From Paracyclopina nana (taxonomy: Eukaryota; Arthropoda; Copepoda; Cyclopoida; Cyclopettidae), in assembly GCA_019096065.1 (NCBI GenBank), contig JAGUCH010000005.1, forward strand, positions 4,092,001 through 4,156,000: DNA of 64,000 bases. The letters run 5' to 3'. Both the position numbers and the translations under genes were made by a program. Below are positions 155 to 53,062 of this stretch, piece by piece (within the stretch, counting starts at the first letter, position 1; every line of letters begins with the position of its first letter). The notes beneath the pieces were generated by a model. The model worked only from the letters and a program-made list of their open reading frames with translations. It ran no database searches and was not told where the DNA came from.

Positions 155-3100
155 ATGACGAGTTGCACTAAGAAAATGACATTCCTTATCGACAACATTC
201 TTCAGCCGGAATTTGGCAAAAAGTTGACCCAAAACAGTGACAAAAAGCCTCAACATCAGCTGCCCGCCTGGATCTACAGCACTCGATATTCGGACCGACC
301 ATCTAGCTCCTCCACGGGTAATATTGATACAGCATAATTTTCGAGTCTCCCGGATTAGCTGGTCGTAAAAGCCAAGAAAAGAGCTTAGTATCTCCAAAAT
401 AAGAGCCCTCTTCTCATTCTGTAGTTATACGGATTAGTAAAACAGCTTAATTTCTATATTGCCCTGTTGTAAACCTCAAGAATGGGACCATACTGTGGGA
501 AAATATTCCGAAAAGGTGACTGCTCTCAAGGCATGTCTCACTCAAGGCTCTGTGCTAAAAATCAACAACTGCATATGCGGAAAACTGACTTGAGCTATGT
601 GGGAGACCACATGTGGATAGCGTCTTTCATGTTTCATCCATGATGATGATCATCAACATGGTGGCACATAACTCGTGCTCAATGAGCTCGCAGATCAATT
701 TGAGTTCGTATATTTTGGCAGCAAGTCAAAGATGGTCGAGTATGATATGGGAGGTGAGGAGTTTGTCAGGCAAACAGAGAAAAAACAAAATACTTCAGCC
801 ATACTTCTAGCCACTTTTTTTTTTAAAAAAAAAGATGATGTTCATGTGACACAAAATGGCCAGATTAATTAAGGCTAAAACTCATTATGCAAAAATTCTT
901 GTGTACAAAGAGTATGTCCTGCTGTGATCTATGTGTGGCCGAGTCATGTTCATTTCTGGAGCCTAAACCCCGCCCCACTGATTGCTCTTCTCCTGATTAT
1001 TTCAATGCTTTTGAGATTCGAACCACACACCTGCTTTTTGTGAGGAAAAATATCCAGCAGCCATTTTGCCGGAAGCTTCAATTTCCTGCCTCAATTTCTT
1101 CTCCTCTCAGAGCCAAGAAGAACCTTAATTGAATTTCGACAGCGTCCACTCAGACCACACTGAGAAAAATCCGACAAAAATCCGCCGTTTGAATCATTAG
1201 TCAAACTTTCATTAGAAAGCTCATCAAGTAGCAAGGTGGCAAACTCACAACCGCGTTTGATTCCCTTGTCCTCTTTTTTGGAATCAACTTGGTTAATAAG
1301 TAATGGAGTGCTGAGAGAGACCACAACCTTTTCGAACTCTCACAATGGTAAATTGAAAAATTGCCCCACTAAATTGGAAAAAGCACATCGTGCGCATTAA
1401 AAACGAAGTGGAAAGATTGCCAACAAATATCAAGTCAGCAATTATTTTAAAATAGCGCCAATTGGTCGTGACTGGCACTATTTGCTCCGCCAAGAAAGGT
1501 TACCAAATAGTATGCAAATTTTGCAATTTTAAAGCATAATACCGATCCCAGCAAGCCCGTGTCGTCCAATGTGTCGAAGCTTGAGAGATAACCTTAATTG
1601 GTTGGCCTCCTTTTTGTTCTATTCTCAACGTAAGTATACTAGAAGATAAAGCTTGAGAACCAATTTCAAAGCTGTCCATCTGGGCGCTAATTGATTGGTC
1701 CCTCAGCAAGCAAAAACTGTTAATTTTTCATAGCAATAGAAGCAATTTACGTTTCGCCAATTGAACCTTGAAGAAGACAAAAAGTATTGGATTGTTGACA
1801 ACATTACAGTGTCACGGTGAATTTTCAAACTGCAACAACTCTATTCAGGGCCCTGCGCAATAAAAATCCTACCTATTTATCACCCTTGTCACTGTTGTTG
1901 GGCTTTCAGCCAAGCCCACTAAAATCACCCCGGAGCTGCACAATTCTCAATAGTCATCCAAAGTTAGATTTTCAGGCGGGAGATACATGCAAAAATCCAT
2001 TTCGTTTCCCTAGCGACCACTAAGTGGACATTTCGCTCAGTTTTGACCTTAAAAGCCATATAGCTTTGGCCGAGACTGCTAAAACAACTCAATTCCTTCT
2101 CCGAGTTGTTCAAGTAGAGTGATTTTTTGAAGTGGGTGGTCAAACTCATCAATGACGCGCTGCTGACATTGTCAAGAAGCCGCATAGCTGTGACAGGCTT
2201 AATGGACTTTTAAAAGGTCAAAATAGATTCTACTCACGTGCTTGAATCCGGATAAATAAGCTGTTTTTGGGCGGACCATCATCATCGTTGGGGGGCCCGT
2301 AACAATCAAATTATTTGGCCACCCATTAATGGGCTGAAGTCACACACACGCCAGCCTGAGCAAATTTCACTTGGTCAATGATCATGTGTGGTCTTCCTTG
2401 AAAAATTCCTTCAAGCATCAGCTGCTCTGAAATCATGACCATTCAATTAGGGAAGCTTCTAACTAGCTTCTTCCCGAGCACAATGGACTGATCCTTTTCA
2501 ATCTTGGCCGATGAGGATGGCTACCAAATTCCGTGAACTCTTAGGCGTATAAATTGTGAGTACACAACTCGGAGATTATTCCCTGAAAAACGATAGAAAA
2601 AGTCAATCAGTGTTCAACAGGAATCGACTATTAAGCGTAGCGGCTAAAAGGAAAACAAGATCAAGAATCAAGCTGTCCATTCGTCAAGGGACCTCATTAG
2701 TAGATTTTTGCCGAAAAAGTCGCATTTGACCGCAAAAAACACACGGGCCGGGGCAAGATTAGATAAATCAATTTTTACGATTATCCAAGCTTTTAACTCA
2801 CTTTCTTTCCTTTCCGTCCCGTACGAGTCCGCGAGCTTTGTTTACATTGCTAGATTCGCAGTTTTCTTCCGGGTTATTTTTGTTTACATGTTTGATGTCG
2901 AAAGAGGCCAAGAACGTTCGTGAAATGCCAAAAAGTCAACAAATATGTACTTATTTCAGGAAGGAAACGCCGGAAAAAAGAGAAAGCTCCGACCGAGCAA
3001 AAACGATGCAGGACATCTTTCAACGCGGATCAATTAGAGGTTTTACTCTGTGAATTTGATCTGAGCCCGTATTTGACTGAGGATCGGCGCAAAAGTCTCG

Positions 3101-3225
3101 CGTCAAAGCTGGATTTGGATGAATCTCAAATCAAGATCTGGTTCCAAAATAGGCGGGCAAAAATGAAGAAGAAAAGCAGAAGTGTCAAAGCTGAGAATTT
3201 TGTCACTGATCCAAAACCACCTTAA
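155..3225 (+). CDS. en-C: short, divergent engrailed-class homeodomain protein
   Basis: Predicted 142-residue nuclear transcription factor in two exons (155-317 and 2960-3225) joined in phase 1, the same phase and place as the intron in the two other engrailed genes here. Exon 1 carries an EH1 Groucho-binding core ([12 protein letters not shown], residues 10-21) and an EH2 block ([16 protein letters not shown], about 36-51). Exon 2 carries a basic EH3 (RKRRKK) and a homeodomain (about 66-126) with helix 3 [12 protein letters not shown]. It lacks the first Trp of EH2 (WPAW in the paralogues), the long low-complexity N-terminus, any PxDLS motif and the C-terminal EH5 (GLYNH). The usual length for the family is over 300 residues. 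ATG 155 is chosen; ATG 176 is an alternative. The gene converges on en-A. The class is clear, but whether the gene is functional or decaying is unknown. No stop or frameshift interrupts it. Confidence 0.8.
815..833. repeat. T/A homopolymer palindrome inside the en-C intron
   Basis: About ten T followed by nine A form a self-complementary run. The rest of the 2.6 kb en-C intron (318-2959) shows no recognisable gene. Confidence 0.7.
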
Positions 3226-5333: not shown

Positions 5334-6462
5334 TTAAATGGCGCCGGGGAATTCGTCTTCGTCCACAGGCACTGTCGCATGATTGTAGAGACCTTGAGCA
5401 GCCAGCATTTTCGCCAAGTCTCCCTTGGTGCCGGTGGCCTTTTTCAGCTTGGCCCGCTTGTTTTGGAACCAGATCTTGATTTGCGTCTCGTTGAGGCCCA
5501 ACTCGTTGGCCAGACTGCGGCGCCGGTCTTCGTTGAGGTACCGATTTTCGTCGAATTCTTTGCGAAGTCGCGCCAATTGTTCAGAGGAAAAGGCCGTTCG
5601 CGGCCTTTTTTCGTCGGGAGACGTGGGATTACACACGCGGTCCTTCTTCTTGATTTTACGCATTCTTGGACCTGCAATAAAATAAAATGGAACCCATGAA
5701 ACAATTTTGCCATGTAAAAAAAATATATATAATTCACACCAAAAAATTAAATTCCAATTTTTCGCAATGATTATCACAAAAACGCCACTTACCAGATGAG
5801 GGTCGGTCGGAGTATCTTGTGCAGAATACCCAAGCGGGCCATAATTGTCCGTTGGGACCTCGAACCATACCAGGGGGAACGCCTTCTTCTGAGGCCGGCG
5901 AGCCATCGGACTTTTTGTGCTGTTGCCCATCCTCCGAGCTTGAGCCATTGTTTTTGCTGTTGTTGTTCGACCGCGAGAGGTCGACGGGCTGCATGCTATT
6001 GTTGTTGTTATTGCTGCTCAGCGGCGAAGATGGCGGGCTTTTCATTTCACTTTTGACAAAACTGCCGTTGGTTGAGCTAGAACTGGACGAGGGTGACCTC
6101 TGCCTCTCCGACAGGGACGAGGCTGTGGAGGAGGCCGCGGCCACGGCCGCGAGGCTGCTCAAAAAGGCCGTATTTTGGAGCAAGGCTCGAGGGCCGAAGG
6201 AGGGCTTCAAAATATTGTCTATCGAGAACGGCAAGGTTCTGTGCACTGGTAGAGGCAAAAAAGGCTGGAAGATGAGTGGCGGCCTCGTGGCCATGGCCAG
6301 CCCGGCGGCGGCCGCAGTTGTGGGGGTATGTGCAGGGCTGGAGCACGTGGAATTTGGTGTGTCCGTCACCCTGATTTCAGGGCTCTCGTTGTCCTCCTCT
6401 CTGTTGAGGTCTGGCGGCGGGGAGGCTGGAGTGACCTCCACGATGTTATCCATGCTGATCAT
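5334..6462 (-). CDS. en-A: engrailed/invected homeobox transcription factor
   Basis: Predicted 335-residue segment-polarity type repressor. Exon 1 is 6462-5793 and exon 2 is 5671-5334, with a phase-1 intron of 121 bases between EH2 and EH3. Blocks in order: EH1 ([12 protein letters not shown], about 79-90; Groucho binding), Ala/Ser/Asn-rich linker, PVDLS (159-163; a CtBP-type PxDLS motif), EH2 ([17 protein letters not shown], 208-224; Exd/Pbx contact), EH3 (PRMRKIKKK), homeodomain (about 243-302, helix 3 [12 protein letters not shown]), and EH5 ([17 protein letters not shown]). The start ATG at 6462 gives MISMDN, which matches the MIIMSI start of en-B; the open frame extends further upstream but without ATG. 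It is transcribed in the same direction as en-B, 22 kb away. Which of the two is orthologous to insect engrailed or invected cannot be decided from this window. Confidence 0.93.
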
Positions 6463-9400
6463 GATGAAGTCTTGACGGGTTGACTTTTGACAATCGACTC
6501 TTGAAGTTGAGGAGTTGATTTTTGGGGCGTAGACCGCGGTAGTCTTGCGTGTAGTGGCGCGGTGGCGCAGAAATTGCCCCTCGTCCAATGAAAACGCGAC
6601 CGCCACTTTCGAGGGTGCGCAAGAAAAATTCCCACTTGATTGTCATGTCATCTCATCATCAAGGCAGAAAGCTTGCTCCGAGCTGGCCTAGCTGGCGGAC
6701 TAAATTACGAGGTTGGGCTCAGCCATAATTCAGGTCCAAATTAACTTTTCAGAGACCAAACTTATGCATTGATTAGGAGTGACATTGTAATTGTGAAAAC
6801 ATGCACAAATGCCACATGAAGCAGTATGTGAAAAGGCTGATTAATTTCGGGGGTCTGCATGTCGCTGATAAAATCGTCAAGTAATCAGCCTGGCTAGGTA
6901 GTAGTAAGGCACAAAAAGAGTGGTTCGATGCGCATGAAATGAGCGAATGCAGTTGTAAAAATATAGTAGTACTACTAGTGGTTGAAGCCGTACCTTGTGC
7001 TAGCTTTAGTCGACGATTCAATTAGACACGCCGCGCGGTCCTCTTTCTTTATCTCTTTCTTTATTATGGCAATACTTAATGATGAGGCCCCACCGGACAA
7101 CATCACTAACATAACAAATTGAGCAATACTAACCTTATGCCATGGTGCAAAAATATTTAGCTATGCAGTAGGATGCTCTTCTATAATTTCAAGTTACGAG
7201 CTCAACATTCTGTAGCTCTATAATTGAAGCCGCACGCAGTTGCTATATATGAAGTATCTGGTGGGGAAAAAAGAAGCGGCTGGTTGATAGTTGGCAATGA
7301 CAAAGCGCTACAGCTTTAGTAACGATTTTTCTACCCTGCCTGCAATGTCCTGTGCTGCCGAAAAATTATGGCTCTCTTTCATATACTATACGCGGGAACA
7401 GCTATGATCAACCATTAGGGGTAATTTTGCCATTAAAACGAGGTAGTTGCGAAAACAATAACAACAGCGCCAACTAACCTTTCCTTAATTGAAGGAGATC
7501 AGGTTGCGTTTCACAATTAATTGTTACGACAATAATCAAGACGTGCTAGTGCTTCAATGTTGAGGTAATCACGAAAAAAGTAACGAGCTTCAGTTGCTGT
7601 AAATATCTAGTAGCAAATTACCTGATCCATGCAACGACGACAGACTAGTTATTAGCTGTCACATGAAGCTAATTAATGGAACGTGGTATCATTCAATTAA
7701 ACGGACCAATTCATTAATAATCAATGGAATGCAGTTGTTTCAAAAACAAGTTCCCTTGGGATCGATTGCTACCAAGTCAATTGACATTCCTGTCTGTTGC
7801 TGAAGCTTTGAAAATTGTCTTGACAGTTTACAGATCGAGCCTTTCCAATCCAGTGAAAACTGAGAGGGAAAAAATATAAGGTGCCAATTTGGCCATCAAA
7901 ATGACAGAATGGAAATTGCTTGCTCTTTCTCATTTCAATTGATGTCATTTCCCAGAGTGACTCGGAGCCATGATTATCTTCACTTATAGCAGAACTTCTA
8001 AGCTGCTCTTTTGTACTGCAAAAAGTCAAGACCTCTCCTTCATCATTTCAACATTTCGTTTTCTAATCCTTTTTCCCATTCCAGACAGGAGCAAAAAAAA
8101 GAACTCACTGTTTTTAACAAGAATCATCCACTGGCAATGATCCTCCTTTGGTCCAAACGTTGATGATTGGTAAGATTTCACCCGAAGTAAATCTTGTCAA
8201 AGATGAAAAACGAACTGAGATCCAGAAGACAAAGTTTTCAGGGTGGTCTACGAAATCCGAATCAAATTGAACAACGACCTAAAAAAGAGCATAATCATTT
8301 CTAACAAATTCGAGCAGGGCGAGATTTTTATCTTTATCATTATCAATGGAGAAAAGAAGCCACAAAAATCCCACGCCCATTTTGCAATTTAGCCGAACTT
8401 GCCAATTAGACCGAGTTGAAATCTTAGCTTGAAAGCAGCATGCAGCAAAAATCGTTTGTCACGAAAATGTTTGCCTTAGAGAAGTGTCAAGAATGGGACA
8501 ACTTACACGAGCCGGCTGAGATCAGTGGGTCAACAATCAGGGGAGGAATTTTACATCCGGTGTATTTAACCTGCTGCGGTCATGTTGTTCATCTCCTGTT
8601 TGTCACACTTGACCCAGAACATGATCAATCAAAGTCCAACAAGCAAAATTGTGCGCTCAGCATCAATGCTGAGGGGGTTAAGATGCCACCCTCGAGGAGA
8701 CGAGGATGCATGCTCCACTTTCGATGTTGTGTGGATTTTCACTCCATCTTTGAAGACAATAGCAGACATCATTTGTCTGCATAGGAGTGAGGTGACAAAT
8801 GGACGCCGACACGGAATTACCCTAAAATGACTCTCTCCTTGGAGATCGATGATGCTCAGCTCAGATTATTGTGTCGTTGTCGTGACTTTGTTTGCTCGAT
8901 TTAATTATTTCCAAAAGCCTCAGCCATAATCCGATCTCCATTCCTTTCAGCCAAGTATGGGTGGGGCGCCAGCCACACAATTTATGATTTCTTTGCTCAG
9001 GCCAAATCACTTTTCCCCAGGTCACTCCGGCGCAAAGCAAAATTGCTTCAACGGCAGCTCGGCACACAACCAGCCTCACCTTGATAAAATGAGGTTGCAC
9101 ACATTTGTCGGCCTGGAAAAAACAGTAGACCTTTTAATTAGGACGGTTAGCTTATCTCCTTGTCTAATAAGACACACTTACTGCCACTGCTGCGTCGAGC
9201 TTGGAGAGAATGCATTTTTTGCCAAGTTCACAAATTAGGACTAATTGTCTTTGTCTCTTTGAGGTTGAACAGAAACCTCCCAGGTTGATCAATGATCATC
9301 TTAATGATGAGGCAGCAAATTCTTGCCTAGCTCTACTCCAGATTCTTGCTCAAAATGAATGATCATGAAACACGAGCCACATGGTAATTAGAGAATCTAG

Positions 9401-28754: not shown

Positions 28755-30229
28755 TCAATTGTAGATAGGGTTATCCTCCTCGTCCACTGGAATTGTGGAG
28801 TGGTTGTAGAGACCTTGAGCCATGAGCATTTGAGCCAGTTCGCCTTTTTGCCCTGAGCTTTTCTTGATTTTTGCCCTCTTATTCTGGAACCAGATTTTGA
28901 TTTGGTTCTCGTTCAGGCCCAGCTCATCTGCGAGGTTTTTCCGCCGCTCCTCGGTCAAATATCGGTTATCCTCAAACTCTCTCTTCAGCCTTCCCAATTG
29001 GTCCGAGGAGAATGCAGTTCTTGGCCTTTTTTCCAATGGCTGCTCTTTGGGGTTTGAGCTCTTCTTGATGCGTCGAGATCGTGGACCTGCAATGCATTGT
29101 AGTATAGATGATATGCTCAGGCCTTTGGTATGTCTGACCACATGAACTAGCCCCCTCTGTCCTCCTCCCTAAATGGGATCTCAATTCTAATCTTTATTTT
29201 GTCGTCCACTGTGTGAGACGACGCGCGACCACACACGGTTAATGGTAGTATATTTTCACAGTTACCCAGATAAGCTAGCTGGCTACCGGTTTATTGGAAA
29301 ATTGCTCGCATTCCTCACATGACTACTTGGGTCAATCATTATTATCTGGCTTGTCACATCAGTAGTATTCCAATTAAAGGCGATTACCAAGCCTCTGGTG
29401 TAATTGGCACCACCAGTTTTTGCCCTCTTTTTATTTCCCTCTCAGGAGATCTGTGATAACGCTTTCGACTCATTAGCAGCTCCAGAGAAAAAGTCTCAAA
29501 GAGACACCGCAAAGAATATCATAAGCATATGGCAAGCACTACAAATCAAGAGTGTGGAGTGTGTAGCAAAGAAGGGGAGAAATGAAAGAAAGCATCGCAT
29601 CAGTTTGGCTACTCACCACTTGAGGGGCGGTCGGAGTAACGAGTGCAAAATACCCAAGCCGGCCAAAGTTGGCCGTTGGGGCCTCGCACCATGCCCGGTG
29701 GGCAGTCCTCGTCCCTTTTGATGCCGCTGGGCAATTCCTCGTCGCTGACAGAGATGCAGTTGTTGTTCTCGCTGCTGCTATTGCTCCGGCTCAATTTCCC
29801 GGACAAATCGACAGGTTTCACCTTCTCCCTCTTGACGGTAGGGGTCGTCGGTACCGGCGTGGACGCCGTGGAGGACGAGGTGGAAAGGGGTGAGGCTAGC
29901 GGAGACCCCATGGGGGGATTATTTTGTGGAGGGGCAGATGCGGCCGCGGCCGCTGCCATCAGTGCCATCAGGGAGCTCTGGAAAAAAGGGGAAGAGAAGA
30001 GCGGCCTCGGAGGCTGCGGGCATCCTCCAAACGTGGGCCTCAGAATGTTGTCAATGGAGAACGCGAGCGATTTTTGAGGCTGCTGGTCATGGGGGCGAGG
30101 CAGGAAGGGCTGAAAGAGTGAGGTGGGAGTGGGCCTGATGGGTAGTAACGGGGGCGAGGAGTTGTTGGTGTCCTCGTCCTCCGTAATCTCCTCCTTGATG
30201 TTGGTGTCTTCGATGCTCATGATGATCAT
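28755..30229 (-). CDS. en-B: engrailed/invected homeobox transcription factor
   Basis: Predicted 314-residue paralogue of en-A. Exon 1 is 30229-29617 and exon 2 is 29086-28755, with a phase-1 intron of 530 bases at the same site as in en-A and en-C. Blocks: LFQPFLPRP then EH1 ([12 protein letters not shown], about 58-68), Ala-rich and Pro/Ser/Thr-rich linker, PVDLS (139-143, CtBP-type motif), EH2 ([17 protein letters not shown], 189-205), EH3 ([10 protein letters not shown]), homeodomain (about 224-283; helix 3 [12 protein letters not shown]), and EH5 ([18 protein letters not shown]). It is closer to the family consensus in EH5 than en-A. Start: ATG 30229 (MIIMSIED), with ATG 30220 in frame. 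The role expected from the family is a repressing and boundary-setting transcription factor acting in the nucleus. Confidence 0.94.
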
Positions 30230-33026
30230 GACGAGTTGACAGCTGGATGAAGACTATTGCTTTTTCTGAGCGAAACAGAAGAGCTAAAGCCTGCGTCGTC
30301 GTCGCCGTCGTCTGCTACGACTCAATTTTTACCATCTGGAGGCCGAGAGAGTAGGAGAGTGACGGCGGCGCCGTAGTAAATGGCACCGCCATAAGACTCT
30401 ATGTGGCGCTAGCGGCGGAACTGGCGGAACTGAGCCAATCAGCTTTTTTTCATGGACGCAATTGAGCTGTGAGATGACAGGACTTCATCAAGCACCACCA
30501 CGACAAAATGCAATTTTTGCTCAGCCAGAGTACACCACATAGCTACACAGTAAAGTGGTCAATTGTGCGAGGAGGCATTTTTCAAGCCCACAATTGAGTT
30601 GTCTCTAATTACCCACATAGTACTACAACTAGGAGTTTAAGGCTTATAATAAGCAAGCCAGCATGATTTTATATGTGAGCTTCGAGGTCGGTTTTCGGAG
30701 GCCTCTTTTCCTGGAGTTGCGAGCTAGGGACTTTGCTCAATTATGACGGTCAGTGAATTATAGATGAGATGGGCTGGGTGAAATAGCCTACACTCACAGC
30801 AGCTGTGACGATAATTCGCTTTGGCTTCATCATTAGTCCAATGAATTCATAAGCTTTTTGGGTGTGGGCGCTTCATAGTTTATTGGCCTCATGCTGTCAA
30901 AGCTCCATAGCAAATATTGGTGCTGCCGACGTCTAGCTGTTCACTCCTGCTTGGGGAATTTTGGCCCCATTAGCTAGTTGTAAAGTTCATCAGATGCCAC
31001 CATTGTACAGAGATGCGAGTGGCAGACGCGAGAACGCGTCAACTCGAGGGACCGATCAACTCCAGCTCATAAATGACACTGCGAACATTTATCTCTTTTT
31101 ATGAGTTTCTAATTGAGCCAATTCAACTCCATTTTTCATTGCTCCTCCAAGCCAGACGTTGATGATACAAAAGGGGCGCATCTCTGTAGTGTCTAGGTGT
31201 CTAGGCGAGCACCAAGGATCTTTTAGTTTCTCAGCGGCAAGCCATGGACAGAAAACAGTGAAGAATCGGAGAATTATGCAGCATTCTCTCACAACAACCT
31301 TCCATTATTTGGCAAGCCAGCTTTTTGAGATATCATCTCTCATTTCACATTTATTATAGTATGAAGGAAGAAAAGTGACTTTGACCACGTGAAGCCAAGA
31401 GCAGTATTAAGTAGCTTACCTTCTGTAATCAGCACGAACTCTCAATTTAATTGGCCGTAAAGGTTGCATAAGAAGAAAAATCACCATGCCACGACCTCAA
31501 TCTTTGCCCCCTTATGACCATTAGGCGAACTTTTCTTGTCAAAGTCACGATTTTCAGGCTAAAATCCACCGAGAAGAAGCGCACATAATCAAAGATCGGC
31601 AGCTGCAAATATCATAAAACTTACTTCAAAAAAGAGCCTTCCAAAAGCCCCTCAGATATGTCATGACAGATAGCATAACGCGCGCCAAAAAAAAAGTGTC
31701 GTAAAAGCCAATGGACGGAAGGAATTCAGACGGGAGAGCTTTTTTGGCCCTAAACATATAATCTTGACATTTCCGCGACCTGGACCCTTGTCATGTAGGC
31801 CAAAAGCTCCCTTTCGTGTCCAGCCAAGGAGAAGAAGTCTCAATTTGCTTTTTGAGCTTCAATACCTCCAAAGCATTCATGCCAAAATCCCCCACAAGTG
31901 TCCCGTAATCATGGTGCCTCCGTAGACAAGTTCGGGAGTGATTTATTGCCAAATACTATTAGCGTTACTTAATTCAGGGAAATGTTATCGCGCAGAGAAA
32001 ACTATGTAGTAATGTGACAATGGAGCCCAATTAGTGTAGTGACAAAGAGAACACTTGTGATAAACAAAAAAAGGCTTCATACGAAAAAAGGAGGGTCCAA
32101 ATGCACGAGACACAGAAATTCAGAGGGAAACCGCCATTATGCATGGCGCAGCTCATTCACAAAACGGTTTGGGGTGACAACAAAAGTCAACTGAAAATAT
32201 TTTGAATGGGATCCTCTCAGCTCATCATGATGGATTGATGCCATTTCCAGACTGAGCTTGCGCACAACAAAATAACGAAATATAAAATGCTGATTTTTTT
32301 TCAATATATACGGCATCAGGGTAACCAGGTGCGGGAAATGGGTCTTTTCTCATATCTCGTGTAAGTGATGATGGCACAGCATGTCCTCAATTCGCCAAAA
32401 ATGGTCTCCTATCACGCTCAACATCCCACATATGATGACAAGAAATATCGTCAACATATTGCCATTATCACTTATCTCCTCCCACAAGCAAGCTATTGCT
32501 GACACCCTTCTTCCCCCAAAAAATGGATCTTGGATACCACGAGGAAGAGTGTCGCACAACACATTTCTGCCATACACACAGCCTACAACTGAAAATACAA
32601 TCGAAAAATTTCTCACCACTTCCTCTTGTAAAGTTGGCTGTATCCCCCTCTAGCAAGAGAAATTGTTAATTGAAAAATAGGCTAAAAAAATAAAAAAAGA
32701 TGGGCCAGATTAAAAATATGCCAGCAGGCGCAATTTGTTACGGACAAAATGGCGTAGTAATGCGACAAAACATTAGCGGAGAAAAGCTGTCGTCGCATTT
32801 AGAAGTTACATGCGTCATAAGAGCAAAAAATGCTATCATGCTTGATATTTTGCAAATTGCCTTGCGGACAGAACTTAATGAAATCCTCTGAAAAATGCGC
32901 AGGAACTCTGAAAGATGGCGCCACAAACTGAAATTGGAGTTTTTCCGTCGCCGTCACAAGCGCGCACAAGCTTGAAACTCCCGCATGAGTGAGTCAAAAT
33001 TCGAAATTTCGCGCGTTTATTCTGTG
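30230..33026. other. Upstream flank of en-B
   Basis: No coding exon recognised. The first 250 bases upstream of the ATG are locally GC-rich (CGTCGTCGTCGCCGTCGTC near 30297 and a GCGGC-rich patch at 30361-30432) and include GCCAT cores, consistent with a promoter and perhaps Polycomb-type sites. Beyond that the sequence is ordinary AT-rich DNA. Confidence 0.45.
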
Positions 33027-43416: not shown

Positions 43417-44264
43417 TTAAGCAGTTTCTGACTCGACTTGAAGTCTTGAGGCATTGAGCACAATTTCACTTCCATTAAGTTGTCTATCGTTTAGTCCAGC
43501 CTCACCTCCATCATCCGGAGGAGGGTCTTCGACTTCAAGTGGTCGTGGAGCAACTTCTACGATATCAACACTAAATTGAGATGAGGTGTCGGTGCTGTAA
43601 GTATCATAGGATATGGGCTTCGCTCCGTGTCCGGAAGAACCTCCAGAGTTTTGAGCCGTATCTCCGGATGCTCCACTAGGCTTAGCCGTCCGGATTGTTT
43701 TCCTTCTGAAACGAAAACACCAAATCAAGTGGTGAAACTAATTTATCAAAATGATGCACATACTGGAAATCTCCATCTTGGTCCGATTCATCTTCGCTGC
43801 CCACATTTTTTCTTTTTCTCGCTGATTTACCACTATATGGGCCAACTCTACTCCGGTTGTCACTTACGTACGTGGCGCTCATGTTTGTGCTATTTCCGAC
43901 CACAAATCCAGTCTTAGGAGGAGGATCATCCTAGAATACTTTAATGTAATGAAAAGCCAGCCCAAAAATAGATGTGTTTTACTGTAGCGTATATGAGCTC
44001 TTCGGTCTCCTCATCTTTTCTGCAGCACTTGCAACAAGCTTTGCAACATGAGGGCACGGTACAGAAAAGTATGCGCAGGAGTGCGAAAAAAATGCCGCAT
44101 CCCACTAAGCTTGGTCCGATTAACTTGAGTTCAAGGGTCCGGAAGCCTTTGTCGCCAAGACCAACGAAGGTGATAACAAGTCCAATTGATATCATCCCCA
44201 GTCCAACATACAGAATAATGTTGGCAGATCCACTGGCTTGGTAGACTCCATCCTCGTGGTCCAA
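43417..44264 (-). CDS. Shared 3' exons of a two-pass membrane protein
   Basis: Three exons whose phases agree: 44264-43983 (94 codons, phase 0 in and out), 43930-43764 (phase 0 to 2) and 43705-43417 with stop. The first encodes an acidic lead (LDHEDGVYQASGS), TM1 (about 15-35, IILYVGLGMISIGLVITFVG), a short loop (LGDKGFRTLELKL), TM2 (about 48-70, starting LIGPSLVGCGIFF) and a Cys-rich juxtamembrane run (CCKACCKCCRKDEE), a likely palmitoylation site. The tail is hydrophilic with an NRSRVGPYSGKSARKRK patch, SEDESDQD, and a Ser/Asp/Pro-rich end (stop after ESETA). The helix pair joined by a short loop with an LIGP motif recalls PIRT/TMEM200-type two-pass proteins, which is a weak resemblance from memory. 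A further 5' exon is required; seven candidates lie upstream. Confidence 0.75.
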
Positions 44265-45043
44265 CTGCAAATAATGATCGCTCATTAGAAATACCAGAAC
44301 ACCCAGAGGAAGCCAGTACATTTCTCCTTGTAGTTATAGCAGGTTGAGAGTAAAAATGTCAATGTATGTAGAGGAAATGTTTGTTGAACAGCGGAAATCA
44401 GGTTAAACTCAAAGTCTGAGCAACAAAAAGAGCTAATAAATTTGCTGTTTGTGTGTAAAAGGACAAATTCTAGGGATGTCTTGAAAAAGATTACAAGAAA
44501 AAACAACTAAGGTAATATTTTAAAGCATCGTATTAATTTCAAAACATTATTTACAAATATACTGTGTATTTTTGGATAAGAGTACAAGCGTCCTTTCAAC
44601 ATATGCTACAGGTTTACAAAATCTGTATCACAACACAAAAAATTGACGTGTTTTGATTCAATTCAAAGTTACATACAGCATAGTATGGCTTTCTCATGCA
44701 ACCTTGGTTTTTATTGGTAGCAGCTGATAGTGATTGCAGTGTATCCAATCCCTTTATTAATTCTCTTTGACTCAGACTTCAGTTATTCGAAAAAGTAATT
44801 TCACCCAGTCTCGAAGTCGCAGCAGGAGACTCAAATATTCAAGGTAGAACCTCAAAAAAAAACCGAAGGCTTTATGGATTCAATGTTCTGTCCATACAGA
44901 TACACGCCGATTCCAAATAAAAACACGCACACCATCGTCTTAACATGTAAGTAATATGTAGCTGGCAGCAGATTGTACTATAATACACAACATCTTGGCC
45001 TTGCCCAATCGAAGGCCAAGTGGAAAAAGGTTTTTTAACTCAC

Positions 45044-45337
45044 ATCTTCCTCATCCCCGTGCGATGAAAAGTCAACCTGGAAGTTGTTCGCATTTACCTT
45101 ATTGTTTTTCCTTCTTTTCCTTCGAGAATTCCGCTTAGCAAAACCCGTAAATTCTGGTTCCAAAGGGTCCCCTATCTTACTAAAATCTTCCATAGCTATG
45201 TCCACGGAGGTCAAATCATGACTACTAATGCACAAATGGCCTTTCTCCATAGCTACCTTATAGTCTAGAAAGGCAACTCGTATGTATAACGCACACAATA
45301 AGTTTTTGACTGCCTCTGGACCCAAATACTGTACCAT
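45044..45337 (-). CDS. Candidate 5' exon G (or internal exon) of the two-pass membrane protein
   Basis: A 98-codon frame from ATG 45337 (MVQYLGPEAVKN) ends at a consensus donor (GAAGAT|GTGAGT) in phase 0, matching the phase-0 acceptor of the first shared exon 0.8 kb downstream. It contains a strongly basic patch (AKRNSRRKRRKNNK) and an acidic end (SSHGDEED). Unlike exons A to E it does not begin with the small-hydrophobic plus basic motif. It may instead be internal, entered at one of the upstream AG sites (for example after GCTAAG, leaving RNSRRKRRKNNKVN). The true 5' boundary is uncertain. Confidence 0.5.
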
Positions 45338-46215
45338 TAATCATGCTTCGGCCCAAGAAAGGCAATGTATTATGCAATGAAATCAAACTCAAATTATTAA
45401 GAATCGATCCTTATTAATGCGCCTCTTGTGGATTTTAAAATAGTAAAATGGACAACTAAGTACATTGTGCAATTGAAATCGTTCGGTCAACTTTTTTGCC
45501 AGCGCAAAATGCCAAAATGCAAGCTTAAATACAGGAAGCCGATTCAACGTCAAGGTTCCAAGAAAGTTGCAAACAGTAAACTTGAAAAGAGCCGGAGCTA
45601 TCTGTTTGGTTCACTATTCAGTGCCTCGAAAGCAGGAAAAAATAAAAAATGAATCTGATCCGGTGGGAGTTTACGACTCTACTTTCCTTCTGCACTTTTA
45701 GGTGGTCTAAGAGGAAGCCTAACTAATGATGTTACTCAGGTTACTTCAGAGATGAGAAAGGCCAAATAGCGCTTTTGTGCCCCATAAGACAACAGCCGAC
45801 ACAAATTGCATTTCCAGCGCTCTAATGCATGGTAAAAACTACGGTTTCCTTCAAACGACCAAGTCAGTAATGTTACAATGCATAATGGAGGACTCGAGCT
45901 TATAAGAAATTGTGCGGCAAAAAACTACGGCAATGCTTCTAAGAAGTAGGGCATAATGCAACTCAGGAATTTTAATCGTTAAAAGGGTATATTTTCTTAG
46001 TTCCAAAAATGGATTGATTTGTTTACTTGCTTGAAAGCCACTCATTTTGTCATTAATCAAGGTGCAGGCAGCAATTAGACATTTTGCTTCATTAAAAAAT
46101 TATTTTTCCAGAGTTGGTTGCAGGTGAATATTCAAGCCATAATAAAAAATTGGATATGGCAACGTCAATTTGGAGGGAAACGCACTTATATAATGAATAG
46201 GGAAGGAAGATTTGA

Positions 46216-46881
46216 TTATAATGAAAGCTGGCTGAAGTCACAATTGAGCAAGTCTTCAACAGAAGCTAGTCGAGCTGTCATCGTAAGCGGATGCATTTCA
46301 CAAGCCAAGAATTCAAGATCGAGGCCAAGTACAGGATCATCATCGTCGTCCTCTCGGATGAACGAAAACTGATGAACGAGCGCCACCGTAGTTTTTCTGA
46401 CTTCAACATCTAACTGCTTTTGTCTCCTGAGCAAAGGACGAGAAAGAGGGCTTTCACTTTTTGGAGAGTCCGTCGAAGATACCATAGAAGACGATTCGGA
46501 ATTTGTGAAGGAGAGTGAGTTTTGCTTTGTCGGCCTCAAAATATTGTCAGCACTAGCTTTTCGTCGCGTCTGCTGATCCAACGAGGCCAAAGTCTCAGCT
46601 CGGAAGGTGCGCTCAGTTGACCGGCGTAACAGTTGCTTTCCTGCCTGCTTCTTGTTTGCAACGCCAGCATAGATCGCCCTCTTGCGGACAAAACTCAAGT
46701 TTTGCCGCTCCGAGAAAACATTTGCGTTCCTCAGTGGTGTGTAATGAGGGTACTTCTTATTCTTAGCCGGCTTGAAATCTGGTGGAATGTAGTAGATGCC
46801 ATTGGCCTCGTTCTCCTTCCTTAATTGCTCAGCCCTCCTCCTTTGCCTTATAACGTCTGCACCACAGCCAATGTGGACCAT
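46216..46881 (-). CDS. Exon F: related N-terminus on a 221-codon frame with its own stop
   Basis: ATG 46881 begins MVHIGCGADVIRQRRRAEQ, then LRKENEANGIYYIPP. This parallels exon B, where VRNKKKKAQELAKS is followed by GPYIKPFGP, so F belongs to the same set. The frame continues through basic and Ser-rich sequence and an acidic stretch (EDDDDDPVLGLDLEF) to a stop at 46216. Weak phase-0 donors occur inside (ATG|GTATCT, CCT|GTACTT). F could therefore be another alternative first exon, or a complete soluble protein made when splicing fails or ends there. No known family beyond the shared N-terminal pattern. Confidence 0.55.
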   Translation of the reverse strand: MVHIGCGADVIRQRRRAEQLRKENEANGIYYIPPDFKPAKNKKYPHYTPLRNANVFSERQNLSFVRKRAIYAGVANKKQAGKQLLRRSTERTFRAETLASLDQQTRRKASADNILRPTKQNSLSFTNSESSSMVSSTDSPKSESPLSRPLLRRQKQLDVEVRKTTVALVHQFSFIREDDDDDPVLGLDLEFLACEMHPLTMTARLASVEDLLNCDFSQLSL

Positions 46882-47463
46882 AGCTCAATACCGTCCAAGC
46901 TACATTTGTTTTACGTTGAGACGCACTACAACTACTGAAAGGCCTCAAAATCAATGTCACACGAGGACCTAATCAAAATAAGGACACTTTGGTGGCACGT
47001 TGGAGCCCCATGCTAATGCTGCCTCTAACATACAAGTAACAGGGTCAGACAGATTCGATTATTCATCAATGCATTCCTCATTTCATGTCTGCTACCCTGT
47101 GCTCATTAATTTAGTGAGTTTTCTGAGACTTCTTAGCGATCATGCTCCTGGCAAAAAACCCTGCACATAGAAGACAGCTTTGCTATGTACCCAATAACTA
47201 AAATTCTATTATATCTAAGGTAAAACCCTGCAATGAGTAGCCAGGTGCCATGACTTGTCAAAGTAGGCTTTCACAATGCCCAACCAAACCAAGAGGGCTT
47301 GCTTAAAGACTCGTGAATAATGTATTACGCTGGCCCAAACCAAATAAGAAGGACGCTGCGACAAAAACTCACGCAACCCTTTTTCAAATGTTGCATTGAA
47401 TTAAAAAGGCTTGAGCAATATTGGGGGACTCTTGCCGGCTTGAAAGAATGCTGCTGTCCTTAC

Positions 47464-47556
47464 CTTGCTCTTGCGTCTCGGATCTTCAGGAATTCCTGTA
47501 CCACCTTGTCGCCGTGACCTTTGAGGTCTACCCGGCCCATTCAGTTTAGCTGGGTC
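47464..47556 (-). CDS. Possible 31-codon cassette exon
   Basis: A stretch of exactly 93 bases lies between an acceptor with a pyrimidine tract (CTTTCTGTTCTCTT..AAAAAG) and a strong donor (AGCAAG|GTAAGG). It is phase 0 at both ends, so it could be included or skipped without shifting frame between the alternative first exons and the shared exons. It encodes a basic, Gly/Pro-rich segment (DPAKLNGPGRPQRSRRQGG, ending PRRKSK). Too short to be certain without transcripts. Confidence 0.4.
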
Positions 47557-48037
47557 CTTTTTTATAAGAGAACAGAAAGCTTTGGTTAATAACGCAAAAC
47601 AATAATTACGCTTTTATCAGCAACTATAATAATATGGCAATTACAGATGTGCTATTAACAATATTTTCACTATGCATGCAAAAGCAATTTCGTGAGATGA
47701 TGTGTTCATCTAAGATTTTGGCGTTTTTTCAAACATAATTTTAATTGGGAATACATTTGCAGTTGGGAGAAAATACTGCTTTTCAGCCAATTCCCAAGAG
47801 AGGAATGTCATGCCATAAACCGATTCACAAAAAAGTTAACCAGGTTACAATTACTGCAAAGGAAGTCAATTCTTAGATGAACACTACGACAACATTGAAG
47901 GCGTGTCTAACATGCAATTTAAAATAGCCAAAAAATGCTTTGTCTCAGTGGTAGTTTTTGAAAGTTTGGAAACAAGAAGAAATGTAGTTGTGTGGTATAA
48001 GTCCGAATATGTTTATAATTGTCGACCAAGGTGCCAC

Positions 48038-48199
48038 CTGGCTGTAATATTGAGCAGCTTTTCTCTTGTCAGCAGCCTCCTTGGAAATGGAGGCTGCTCT
48101 TCGTTGAATCAATTGACTTTCAGCAGGGGATGGAGCACTTTTCTGTTCCTGAGCAAGTTGTCTTTGTCTCTTGACTTTTGAAGCCACTACAGCCGCCAT
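48038..48199 (-). CDS. Alternative first exon A (MAAVVASKVKRQRQ)
   Basis: ATG in a strong context (CCAAAATGG) opens 54 codons ending at a donor (CAG|GTGGCA) in phase 0. The protein starts MAAVVASKVKRQRQLAQEQK and continues Ala/Lys/Gln-rich to AQYYSQ. The first 19 residues share about 11 positions with the remembered A-type N-terminus of vertebrate FGF-homologous factors (MAAAIASSLIRQKRQ), a long-term inactivation particle of sodium channels. It is a member of the exon set A to F by motif and phase. Function inferred only: an interchangeable cytoplasmic N-terminus of the membrane protein encoded downstream. Confidence 0.65.
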
Positions 48200-50063
48200 T
48201 TTGGCCAGAATATGAATGCCAAAATCAAAGCTAAGTTGGGAGCTCAAACCAAAACTTGATGTTGTCTTGGTGAGTGTGCTTTCGCACTGTTAACCGTTTC
48301 CAATACAGCACTGGAAACTGCTTTGCTGCGCTTGATATGCGAAGAAAATGGTAGGAAACTTCCAGTGCACAGGGCGCTCCGTTTTTACTGTGACGCGACA
48401 ATTTCCTCCTGCTGTCGGATTTTTTCATGCTTTAGTGACTTTGTTTCGCTAGCTATATTTCATATCTCATGTCGACAAAAAGAAGAGGCATGGGCTCTCT
48501 TTTTTCACAACTACAAGCCATAAAAAAATTAAAATTGAGAATTTTCACAGAGCCGCCTTGCGGCGAAAAGTTTAATGCACAGCAGCAGGAGTCGCTCAGC
48601 TTAGTTTGCAGCCAAGTTTAGAATGGTTTCTCGATTCAAAAGTTACTATTGTTTTCGTTGCTACACACGCGCGCATGTAGCCAAGCGAAAACTTTATTTT
48701 ACGGTTGTCTCTCTTCCTCCCCATTTTACTTGGTCAGAATGGGGCTTTGTGCTTCGATAGCATTTGTTATTGAACAAATCAAATTCAAAAATACAATAAG
48801 AGCTCCATGCTCCTTGTCCTAAAAATCTACTACAAAAGTTCAAAGTTGAGCAGCTATCAAAGATTTCAAGGGAAAAATCTATATAAAAACTTTGCTCGTT
48901 TGGGAGGAAATTGTCGCGTAACCTAAATCGTATATTGCTCACGTGCTTCACCAAATGAATGTGCTGTTTTTACCGCACATTACTGTCGAAGAAACACGGC
49001 CGGCCCAATGCACAGCACAATAGTTTCCCAACGAAAATGATTGCAGCAATGTATTTTCCTGCCGCCACTGCTGCTCTAAGGGATTGCCAAAGAAGACTCA
49101 TGACATAGCCTTCAGTCAATTGTGTCGAGAGAGCCGACGCTAGCTTCTCTATTGTTGCCTCATCCCACCAGCTCCGCCAAAATAGAAAGAAATGCTCCAG
49201 TGCCACATACCACTTTCACGTATTCAGCGTGCTGGATATAGCAAATAGCTTGAGTGCCCTTTCAGCTATTGTCCAAACATGGAATTATCCAGATTGGAGA
49301 GAATATGCAGTCCCATGGGACCTTGTCCAAGAATTTTCTCAGCACACACGCGTTAATTGTATGTGATTGCGAGCTGGGCAATTCATAAATGGACACCTTT
49401 GAATGATGGAGCATTCGAGAGTTTGTTTGTTTGGCATAATTAGCCTCCTAGCAAACTGAAAGTTTGTTCTTTGAAGAGAAAAAGAAAGGCCAGTAGAGAG
49501 AGCAAGGGTGGCCTTTTTGCCAGCAGTCCTCGCTGGACAAAGTCACAAATTTTACTGCTGCTACTATTTCTACAGAAGCCATCTCCTCGATAGATGTATA
49601 TAGATAGATCCCAAGAAAGAGAGTAGAAGTAGGGCTATTTTGAGAATATAGAAGAAGAAAATCGGTTCATCCTCACTTTTCCATTGCTTTGTGTTCGAAA
49701 GAAAGTATAAAAGCATGTTGTTCATCATGCATAACTGACCAAAAAAGCCACAGCCGTATCATGAGGCCAGCTTGATCTAATGCAGACTACTTACGGGACA
49801 TCTAAATATAGTATAATATGGATGATGGATTGGGTGAATGCTACATACTCGATATTCTATCAAAAGTACAACTAGATATGAGCTATCGCCTGGACACCCT
49901 ATAATCGTGTTGTACGAACAATTCCTTAAATCTACGCCAGGTAATAGAAGCTGATGATCCTCACTAGCTCACTAGTAAGGTACTACACTAAAAGTAGGTA
50001 CATGGAAAAGGTATTAGTTCTAATGGCTGCATTCCGTTTTCCTAAAACTAAATGCTCAAGTAC

Positions 50064-50285
50064 CTTTCTGGCAGCAAATGCAGCAGCCGCTGCAGCCCCA
50101 GCAATATTTTCGCTCAACTCTTGAGCTTCAAGTAGAGCTTTTTTGTATTTGAAGTAGGGGAGCTCATTGGGATCAAACCGAGGACCAAAAGGTTTGATAT
50201 ACGGTCCTCGCGAGGGAGGTTCGCCAGATTTGGCTAACTCCTGAGCCTTTTTCTTCTTGTTTCGTACAGCCGCAGCACCGAACAT
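50064..50285 (-). CDS. Alternative first exon B (MFGAAAVRNKKKK)
   Basis: 74 codons from ATG 50285 to a donor (AGAAAG|GTACTT), phase 0. It starts MFGAAAVRNKKKKAQELAKS, then a Pro/Tyr-rich part (PPSRGPYIKPFGP) and an Ala-rich end (NIAGAAAAAAFAARK). It shares the small-hydrophobic plus AVRNK basic core with exons C and D, and the following YI.P segment with exon F. Transcription from its own promoter is implied by its position. Confidence 0.65.
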
Positions 50286-50816
50286 GGTAAATTAGTTCTG
50301 CAAATTGTCAAAATCTCAAGACAAAAAAGTGTTGAAGAAGAAGAAGAAGGAGAAGTCGTCATACATGTATGTGTGTCTTCCTTGCCATAAAAACCGATCG
50401 AGATTGTGAGTGGGATATGAGGGTGCTCAAGAGGAAGATGGGTGAGGAAAACTTTGATGCTCACATGGAGTTTTAGGGGACCCAGTTCATCTAATGATCT
50501 CCTGATGTGTATCTTACATGTTAAATGGATGCTTTCAGCATTTATCAGAGCTCGAGCGGGACTTTTTGCAGCCGAGAAGGAATACATGTAATTTACCGCA
50601 GATAAAGGAGAAAAAAGGTAGAACAGCCCAAAAGGCTCATTATTCAGCTCATTAATCAAAATAAATGGCTCTCCTCTTTCCCATTACCAACAAAGATGAA
50701 CAGGGTCCGGAATTGCATAAACCGATGTAAATAATGGCGCGATTTCTACAAAGTCAACTACTACAAACTTCTTGCAGTGCTGATAAGCTCGAAAACACGA
50801 CGACTGCTATTCGAAC

Positions 50817-50972
50817 CTTGAAATGAACGGAATTAGCAAATCGTTGCCTAAACTCGATATCGACAGGCACATATCCTTGGTCGCTGGAGATTGCGTCTTG
50901 TTGCAACTCCCATTCAAGCTTCTGTTGCTGTCGCTTACGTTTATTGCGAACTGCAACTGCGACTGCAGCCAT
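50817..50972 (-). CDS. Alternative first exon C (MAAVAVAVRNKRKRQQQ)
   Basis: 52 codons from ATG 50972 (AGCATGGC context) to a donor (TTCAAG|GTTCGA), phase 0. It starts MAAVAVAVRNKRKRQQQK, then turns acidic (WELQQDAISSDQG) and ends SVHFK. It has the clearest form of the common motif: alternating Ala/Val followed by Arg-Asn and a Lys/Arg/Gln cluster, almost identical to exon D over the first ten residues. Confidence 0.7.
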
Positions 50973-51571
50973 GCTTTTTAGCTATTAGTGGCTTTTCTGC
51001 AATTAACGAGACATTTTGAGATCAGAGATGATGTGCGCTTTTTGGTACATAAACAATCAACATTCAGATATTATATAGAGCCTCATCAAGTGTGAGGTAC
51101 ATGATTTCGTCTCATTTTCAGGAGTGCAAATTAAATTTTTACACCACCCGAGAAACCCAGAAAATAACAGCATAAACCAAGCAGGTCACGTTTATTTCAG
51201 CAAAGCTTTTCATAGTCTTTGGTACTAGGTAGGAGACTGTGCATGTAGCATAACTCCAAAGCAGGCTGAGTGCTTTTCGTAGTTTTCTATTTCAAAGCCA
51301 CTTCTTTTAGAAACCCCTACTGCTTATTTATATACTTTGCGGCCACAAAAGAATTTTGCAGAAAGCGATGCCAGTTGAGTTCCGGATGCACTCGAACTAA
51401 ACCATCAGAAAACCGTCTTGGGCAATATCTATAATTGAGATAACCCAAACTTAATGGTGTGGATTATTGCAAAAATGCCAGGGAAATGCATCTCTTTGTT
51501 GTGGCACAAAAAGGGCCCTGTTGTCATGATCAATCTTTTGGGTTTCTCGGAGGATTCACTACTTTTTTTAC

Positions 51572-51769
51572 CTCCTCAACAATAGTTTGCTTAACAACAG
51601 ACTTGTTTGATCCTTGAGAAAAAGAGGAGTCTATCGAGGTCGATCTTTTACACACTTTTATGGCAACAGGAGGTGTAGAATTGGTGTTTTGTAGCTGTTG
51701 TTGTTGTAGTTGCTGTTGTTGCTGCTGTTTTTTGCGCATATTGCGCACAGCTACTGCGGCCATACTCAT
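51572..51769 (-). CDS. Alternative first exon D (MSMAAVAVRNMRKKQQQQQQ)
   Basis: 66 codons from ATG 51769 (a second ATG two codons later gives MAAVAVRN) to a strong donor (GAGGAG|GTAAAA), phase 0. The Ala/Val stretch and RNMRKK cluster are followed by a polyglutamine-rich run and a Ser-rich segment (KRSTSIDSSFSQGSNKS). The shape (small-hydrophobic start, basic cluster, Gln run) also recalls the inactivation ball of Shaker potassium channels, but no channel sequence follows. Confidence 0.7.
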
Positions 51770-52182
51770 GTTTTTGCTTTTTTTTAACTAAATAGTTTCC
51801 AAAGTCTGCAAAGTCAAAAAGTGGGAAACGTGTCAGAAATTATGACGAGGATAGAGACAAACATGGCATTAAGGAGCACAATTATCCCGGATCAACTCCG
51901 AAAGGTTAAGTAACTTTTTGTGAATACAGAGGCTACACACATTGATGCTCCATGCTTTCCATGTTTGTCAAAGCGGAGAAAAGAAACTTAAATGAAGAAC
52001 ATATTGTATGATCCGGGTAAATTGTTCAAGTTCCCGCACACATCTACGTTTCAGGGCTACTTTGAATCAAAACATGTATTGCTGAAGCACACCAGGTGGT
52101 TATCAACTCTTTTTAAGGCCTAATTGTTTTTGAGAACTTCCTGATGTGCGCAAGTGCATAACAGAAAACGCAAATTAAGCAC

Positions 52183-52281
52183 CTTTCCGGTTAATCTTAT
52201 GAAGTCTTCCCGGCTTGGCCCAGTAGGATTTCTCGATCCGTTGTACATGCCAGCCAATCTTGCTCCCACATGGAGCGCCAT
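52183..52281 (-). CDS. Weak candidate extra first exon (33 codons)
   Basis: ATG 52281 opens MALHVGARLAGMYNGSRN and reaches a donor-like AAG|GTGCTT in phase 0 after 33 codons. It lacks the basic cluster. An overlapping frame on the same strand also meets a GT in phase 0, which shows that chance matches of this size occur here. Confidence 0.2.
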
Positions 52282-52888
52282 ACTTTACTATAAAAATCAT
52301 TCGGAAAATAGTGCGAGCGGGAACTGACCATGACTATTTTTTTCAGACCAGCTTTATTATGCAGTAAGTTGTTGGTGTGTTAAGTTTGCAGTAGCGGAGA
52401 ATATGCTATAAAGCGAAAGAAAGGGAATAGAGACTCGCGCAACCTCGAGTTAAGCAAAACGCACAAGCGGGGCTAGCTTTTATGGCACACCAGTCAAAAA
52501 GTAGCAAGCACCACGGCAATAAATTACTTTATGCATATGTAGCTGAGTCCTAAAGCAAAGAATTGAATTTACACGCAAAGATATACGGCAGAGTATTAAC
52601 ATCAGCCTATGCTGCAACCAGTCCCTTGGGCAAAAAGCCGCAAATAAAGGCTGCAAAAAACACTTGACAAAAGACCCCCGCAGGAGGCCTGAAAAGTATC
52701 AGAAAAAGTCGAGAGAAAACGAGAAAGCGCAATAGCAACAAAAAAAGAAGACTGGCTGCTGCTTTTTTCAGTTGCCAGGATTCTTCCTTGTTATGATGTT
52801 TCCAACTTTTGAGTGATGATGACTCAGCCTTTGAATGAATGGCCTTTGCAGAAGCTGTCAACCAACCAATTTGAAGATTAGACGTTAC

Positions 52889-53062
52889 CTCGGGTCTATA
52901 GCTATCCAAAGTTGAGATGCTAGAGAGACTGTCGCGATGCTTTTGGGCCACGCTGTTTAGAAATTGCTTTTGTTCATTGACATTGCTCATTGCCTGATCA
53001 GTCAATTTATTGGCGGCCTTGCGGCGCTGGGCCTTGACTGCGTTCGCTGCCAAGGCAGCCAT
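52889..53062 (-). CDS. Alternative first exon E (MAALAANAVKAQRRKAANK)
   Basis: 58 codons from ATG 53062 (AGCATGGC context) to a strong donor (CCCGAG|GTAACG), phase 0. It starts MAALAANAVKAQRRKAANKL and continues hydrophilic (SVAQKHRDSLSSISTLDSYRPE). It is the most upstream confident member of the set, 8.6 kb from the shared acceptor. GC content is higher than the flanks, as expected for coding sequence. Confidence 0.65.

Follow-up and report, generated by a model that had tools for sequence, protein, structure and literature searches.

BK beta (KCNMB) subunits carry a long disulphide-rich loop, DPP6 and DPP10 are single-pass proteins with a large ectodomain, and the TipE/TEH proteins are two-pass. 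Among the closest described parallels to the locus reported here are the A-type FGF homologous factors (FHFs) of vertebrates (FGF11-14A), in which an alternative first exon supplies a particle of small and hydrophobic residues followed by basic ones (PMC8059062). Peptides corresponding to residues 2-21 of A-type FHFs are reported to act as open-channel blockers, whereas peptides in which five basic residues have been neutralised give no resurgent current; the FGF core is proposed to increase the local concentration of the particle (PMC9071269). The BK channel beta3 subunit, an auxiliary protein that crosses the membrane twice, is described as having four splice forms (KCNMB3 a-d) with differing inactivation (PMC4193333), and among the DPP6/DPP10 proteins of Kv4, DPP6 is reported to have four alternative first exons, with the DPP6a N-terminus giving N-type block (PMC3366920). 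Tandem alternative 5' cassettes spliced onto a constant region are described for chelicerate sDscam and the vertebrate clustered protocadherins, and in sDscam each cassette is generally preceded by a promoter (PMC4835542). In arthropods, the sodium channel is described as having TipE/TEH proteins as auxiliary subunits (PMC3240667).

Here, we report a computational analysis of a locus of the copepod Paracyclopina nana, contained in a window of 64,000 nucleotides (the whole stretch of DNA analysed), in which an array of small 5' exons precedes a gene for a putative two-pass membrane protein. We tentatively propose that the array and the gene are one unit, in which the N-terminus of a single membrane hairpin would come from one of five or more 5' coding exons that are interchangeable. 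Each exon would contribute a small or hydrophobic head, a basic cluster and a linker, and would be joined in phase 0 to position 44264. The hairpin is envisaged to dock beside a voltage-gated cation channel (a sodium channel most likely, though a potassium channel could also be the partner) and to serve as the anchor in place of the FGF core; the selected head would then act as a blocking particle that enters the open inner pore, and the choice of head would lead to differing block, recovery or resurgent behaviour. We regard this proposal as a possible one that falls short of probable.

RESULTS

An earlier note on this DNA had described five small minus-strand exons beginning at 53062, 51769, 50972, 50285 and 48199. 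All five are present at these coordinates, each with an ATG and a phase-0 GT, and the head pattern read in exons A to E, small and hydrophobic residues followed by a basic cluster, is borne out (Table 1). A sixth related head, overlooked in that note, lies at the start of ORF G (46881). ORF G may encode a soluble form of the protein that lacks the membrane segments, or be a gene in its own right; alternatively, the small exons may be spliced to its tail.

Table 1. Candidate exons and reading frames of the locus, in order from the 5' end (positions within the window)
Feature	Positions	Strand	Head or N-terminus	Remarks
Exon E	52889..53062	-	MAALAANAVKAQRRKAANK	ATG start; phase-0 donor
Exon D	51572..51769	-	MSMAAVAVRNMRKKQQQ	phase-0 donor; splice acceptor 36 nt 5' of ATG
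Exon C	50817..50972	-	MAAVAVAVRNKRKRQQQ	weak phase-0 donor, GTTCGA
Exon B	50064..50285	-	MFGAAAVRNKKKKAQ	phase-0 donor; splice acceptor 12 nt 5' of ATG
Exon A	48038..48199	-	MAAVVASKVKRQRQLAQEQ	phase-0 donor; no upstream acceptor
Exon F (possible internal cassette exon)	47464..47556	-		93 nt; phase 0-0; strong donor (11.3)
ORF G	46216..46881	-	MVHIGCGADVIRQRRRAEQ	221 codons; own stop; internal phase-0 acceptor at 46572
Exon H (possible further N-terminal exon)	45098..45250	-	MEKGHLCIS...RRKRRKNNK	good phase-0 donor (8.4); no ball-like head
Shared exon 1	43983..44264	-		282 nt; the two hydrophobic segments with a short loop between them; juxtamembrane run rich in Cys
Shared exon 2	43764..43930	-		tail
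Shared exon 3	43417..43705	-		end of tail; stop codon

Scored in bits with a generic matrix, the phase-0 donors of E (6.9) and D (6.3) are good, those of B (5.3) and A (4.9) fair and that of C (3.6) poor; the top-scoring GT of exon C is a different one, at 50938, but it is in phase 1 and lies very early in the exon. Such donors are common in the other ATG frames of the window that have at least 52 aa (81 of 237 contain a phase-0 donor scoring at least 3.5, and 60 of 237 one scoring at least 4.8), so that the phase-0 donors by themselves are little proof. Exon F, whose acceptor scores 4.7 or -2.5 depending on the matrix, may be optionally spliced into transcripts.

Downstream of the array, the stretch from 44264 to 43417 makes a credible gene of three exons for a two-pass membrane protein of 245 aa. 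Its introns are in phases 0 and 2, the donor of shared exon 1 is weak (1.2), and a polyadenylation signal, AATAAA, follows shared exon 3 at 43252. The hydrophobic segments of the predicted product occupy about residues 15-35 and 48-68, are separated by a loop of about 12 residues (a hydropathy estimate), and are followed by the Cys-rich run. According to the positive-inside rule, basic stretches flanking membrane segments stay cytosolic; given that the heads are basic, as is the Cys-rich run after the second segment, we place both termini in the cytosol, and the protein would thus be a hairpin. No second copy of shared exon 1 was found in the genome.

The membrane part matched no family over threshold in searches of Pfam and of solved structures. 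TMEM174 came up in Pfam at E=0.23 (11.5 bits against a cut-off of 27), below threshold; a DTHCT match in the tail (E=0.0061, 17.8 bits against a cut-off of 24.9) is ascribed to composition, and the best match among solved structures, to carboxysome shell proteins (E=0.065), to chance. TMEM200 (DUF2371) is unlisted for the core, and its profile PF10177 has no match in the genome, nor likewise in any control. The core has no Pfam match to the BK beta (KCNMB) family and is not matched by TipE (PF16972), a profile with 14 matches in the genome, 12 of them over the cut-off on four contigs and none on contig 5. The FGF beta-trefoil core (PF00167) has no match in the shared protein either, and for this reason the product of the locus is not an FHF.

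The explanation is weakest on the joining of exons A to E to this gene. The phase-0 acceptor that had been placed at 44264 is there, and the local TTTGCAG is good, but the two matrices used disagree on its standing among the 80 phase-0 acceptors between 48030 and 43420 that open at least 30 codons: it ranks 14th under the first (3.3) and 1st under the second (3.6), both of these being generic matrices rather than ones trained on this genome. Sites above it under the first matrix include 44479, 46231, 46572 (inside ORF G) and 45256 (at exon H). Given this disagreement, the splice from the small exons to the two-pass gene is plausible rather than demonstrated.

The same comparison bears on a different assembly of these pieces, in which the tail of ORF G, or other exons, would receive the small exons, with the start of the two-pass gene at exon H (45250) or at an ATG at 44321 on the minus strand. 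G combines an array-type head with a long open frame, and under the first matrix its internal acceptor at 46572 scores 5.8 as against 3.3 at 44264. Exon H has the better donor, and the frame that begins at 44321 with MYWLPLGVLVFLMSDHYLQ is open through the 44264 acceptor, which a start at this ATG could therefore bypass. However, the second matrix reverses the order of the acceptors, giving 0.9 for the best in-phase site within G and 3.6 for 44264; G also has an ATG of its own directly after an in-frame stop, and the minus-strand frames of at least 75 aa listed between 40926 and 42466 look unlike exons by eye. We think it unlikely that the exons are assembled in this way.

The suggestion of a separate promoter for each small exon found no support. 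Just upstream of their ATGs, D (6.1) and B (5.3) have an acceptor, and an in-frame stop separates it from the ATG in both cases; among acceptors within 60 nt of 2280 other ATGs, only 15 reach 6.0 and 27 reach 5.25. The upstream acceptors of C (3.1), G (2.8) and E (2.7) are unremarkable, 3.0 being reached at 274 of the 2280, and exon A, which lacks one, is possibly a true first exon. A 3' splice site just before the ATG disfavours promoters abutting D and B, and the simplest reading is that at least these two exons are entered by splicing from a noncoding or trans-spliced leader. No promoter word common to the regions upstream of the six ATGs exceeded the null range.

The clustering of the heads is not due to chance. 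We scanned for ball-like heads, defined as having at least five small or hydrophobic residues at positions 2-8, at least four K/R at positions 7-18 and no acidic residue at positions 2-14, and found six ATGs (five distinct exons) within the 11-kb region, as against a mean of 0.225 and a maximum of 2 in 200 dinucleotide shuffles. In a sample of the genome (20 stretches, 200 kb), 13 of 1602 open frames pass, or 0.325 per 10-kb strand with a maximum of 2, from which about 0.36 would be expected for 11 kb of one strand; six other ATGs pass elsewhere in the window when both strands are counted. The filter was designed after the exons had been seen, and these figures consequently flatter the array. 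They nevertheless weigh against the view that the reading frames arose by chance or are decayed, functionless copies of exons, as does the fact that the five heads all begin within 4.9 kb, all on the minus strand and all upstream of a coherent gene. On the other side of that account stand the weak donors of C and A and a codon-usage signal that was not found: only exon E (0.075) exceeds the 95% point of noncoding frames (0.054). Shared exons 2 (0.051) and 3 (0.018), the two shared exons scored, also fall below that point, and the codon-usage test is thus without power here. We consider it very unlikely that the frames lack function.

Several of the heads are clearly related to one another. When exon C was searched against the whole genome (92 Mb, 10 contigs), its only other match was the adjoining exon D (44% over query residues 2-44, E=0.039); the other queries, A, B, E and G, returned self-matches only at E<=10. 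Of the 15 pairs of heads, five (A-E, B-C, B-D, B-G and C-D) exceed 1000 of 1000 shuffles, and the remaining pairs fall within the shuffles (B-E, for example, is reached by 235 of 1000). The likeness of B to G past residue 20 is not significant, being reached in 184 of 1000 shuffles. The proposal of exon duplication and divergence is therefore supported in part, with the genome-wide C-D match in its favour, and the remaining heads are compatible with an old duplication. Related tandem 5' exons that share one donor phase, as in the cassette genes of the Pcdh/sDscam kind, were thus found at this locus.

Two of the heads resemble a known inactivation particle. When the FGF12A long-term inactivation particle (PMC8059062, Table 5) was compared with the heads, it scored 47 with head A and 35 with head E, values reached by none of 2000 background heads drawn from open frames of the same genome, and among 2000 shuffled particles none reaches 47 with any head (maximum, 42). 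Judged by sequence similarity to this A-type FHF particle, the other heads are weaker: of the 2000 background heads, 3 equal the score of D, 3 that of G, 19 that of C and 35 that of B. As a genome-wide query the particle has no match at E<=10, and the likeness is accordingly local evidence, below database level. Five K+ channel ball sequences were also compared. Those of Kv3.4, Kv1.4, Kv-beta1.1 and BK-beta2 gave no match that beats background. The Shaker ball scored 49 with exon D, above all 2000 background heads, but this falls to 21 once the glutamine run is removed; because the score depends largely on that run, we discounted the match as an effect of low complexity.

Binding to lipid or calmodulin is common among basic heads, and those described here could alternatively bind either of these, or RNA. 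The same architecture might therefore serve another end, the heads being alternative basic signals for membrane-surface attachment, calmodulin binding or trafficking that steer the location of the two-pass protein. Consistent with this, the FHF particle is itself reported to bind Ca-calmodulin (PMC8059062), and TMEM174, the weak Pfam lead noted above, is a regulator of a phosphate transporter. Such a role would not, however, account for the scores of A and E with an inactivation particle, which exceed those of each of 2000 background heads, and we rate this role as somewhat unlikely.

DISCUSSION

In favour of exchangeable blocking heads on a membrane hairpin, which remains our preferred reading, are the clustering of the heads, the C-D match, the pair scores, the coherent frame that runs from 44264, and the scores of A and E with the FGF12A particle. 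Against it are the rank of 14 among 80 for the acceptor, the weak donors of C, A and shared exon 1, the codon scoring, and the fact that only A and E are clear matches. A more far-reaching version is that the locus represents an undescribed family of arthropod channel subunits, a hairpin with a menu of exchangeable open-channel blockers that would be the counterpart of the A-type FHFs. Such a counterpart would have arisen by convergence or exon capture, and long-term inactivation or resurgent current would be set cell by cell. We find this version rather doubtful.

Were our proposal correct, an arthropod would tune channel inactivation by selecting among at least five blocking particles carried on a membrane-anchored subunit, and a cell could choose how its own channels shut off; the vertebrate parallels (FHFs, DPP6 and BK beta3) each have few heads. 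It would also provide a concrete arthropod molecule for the study of long-term inactivation or resurgent current, and a further case of tandem alternative 5' exons beyond recognition molecules.

Several other features of the window and genome came to light. By-eye inspection of the frames of the window, from its start to about 30 kb and from about 38 kb onward, revealed two genes on the minus strand, in the same orientation and about 22 kb apart (5337-6642 and 28758-30253), which, from their motifs, we take to be homeobox genes of the engrailed type. A third homeodomain-like open frame, possibly another copy, lies near the first of them on the plus strand (2896-3222; likewise by eye). Elsewhere, three FGF-domain pieces lie over the cut-off on one strand of contig 6, within 1.5 kb (3971234-3972677). 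These are all the FGF pieces over cut-off in the genome, and they could represent two neighbouring FGF genes or one double-domain gene; the one piece compared, which is not the top-scoring one, matched designed trefoils, FGF20 and FGF9, with no FHF among the six matches listed. By its content the genome is that of an arthropod, with 80 matches (E<=0.001) to the chitin-binding family of cuticle proteins in addition to the TipE matches given above.

How does the locus compare with the systems described to date? The claim that no arthropod gene had been described with this arrangement was too strong, given that chelicerate sDscam has tandem alternative 5' cassettes (PMC4835542). An arthropod gene of the blocker-head type was absent from the literature matches listed, a coverage from which most subscription papers fall outside. 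Relative to the A-type FHFs, a membrane hairpin would replace the FGF core, and at least five alternative heads are present. Relative to BK beta, the loop is of about 12 residues rather than long and disulphide-rich, and the BK beta2 head gives background-level scores with all six heads. DPP6 and DPP10 are set apart by their description, with a single membrane pass and a large ectodomain unlike the product predicted here. sDscam and the protocadherins vary Ig or other extracellular domains, whereas this locus varies short, presumably cytosolic heads. If our proposal is right, the locus would combine alternative N-termini that switch inactivation, as in BK beta3, DPP6 and the FHFs, with tandem 5' cassettes in the style of sDscam.
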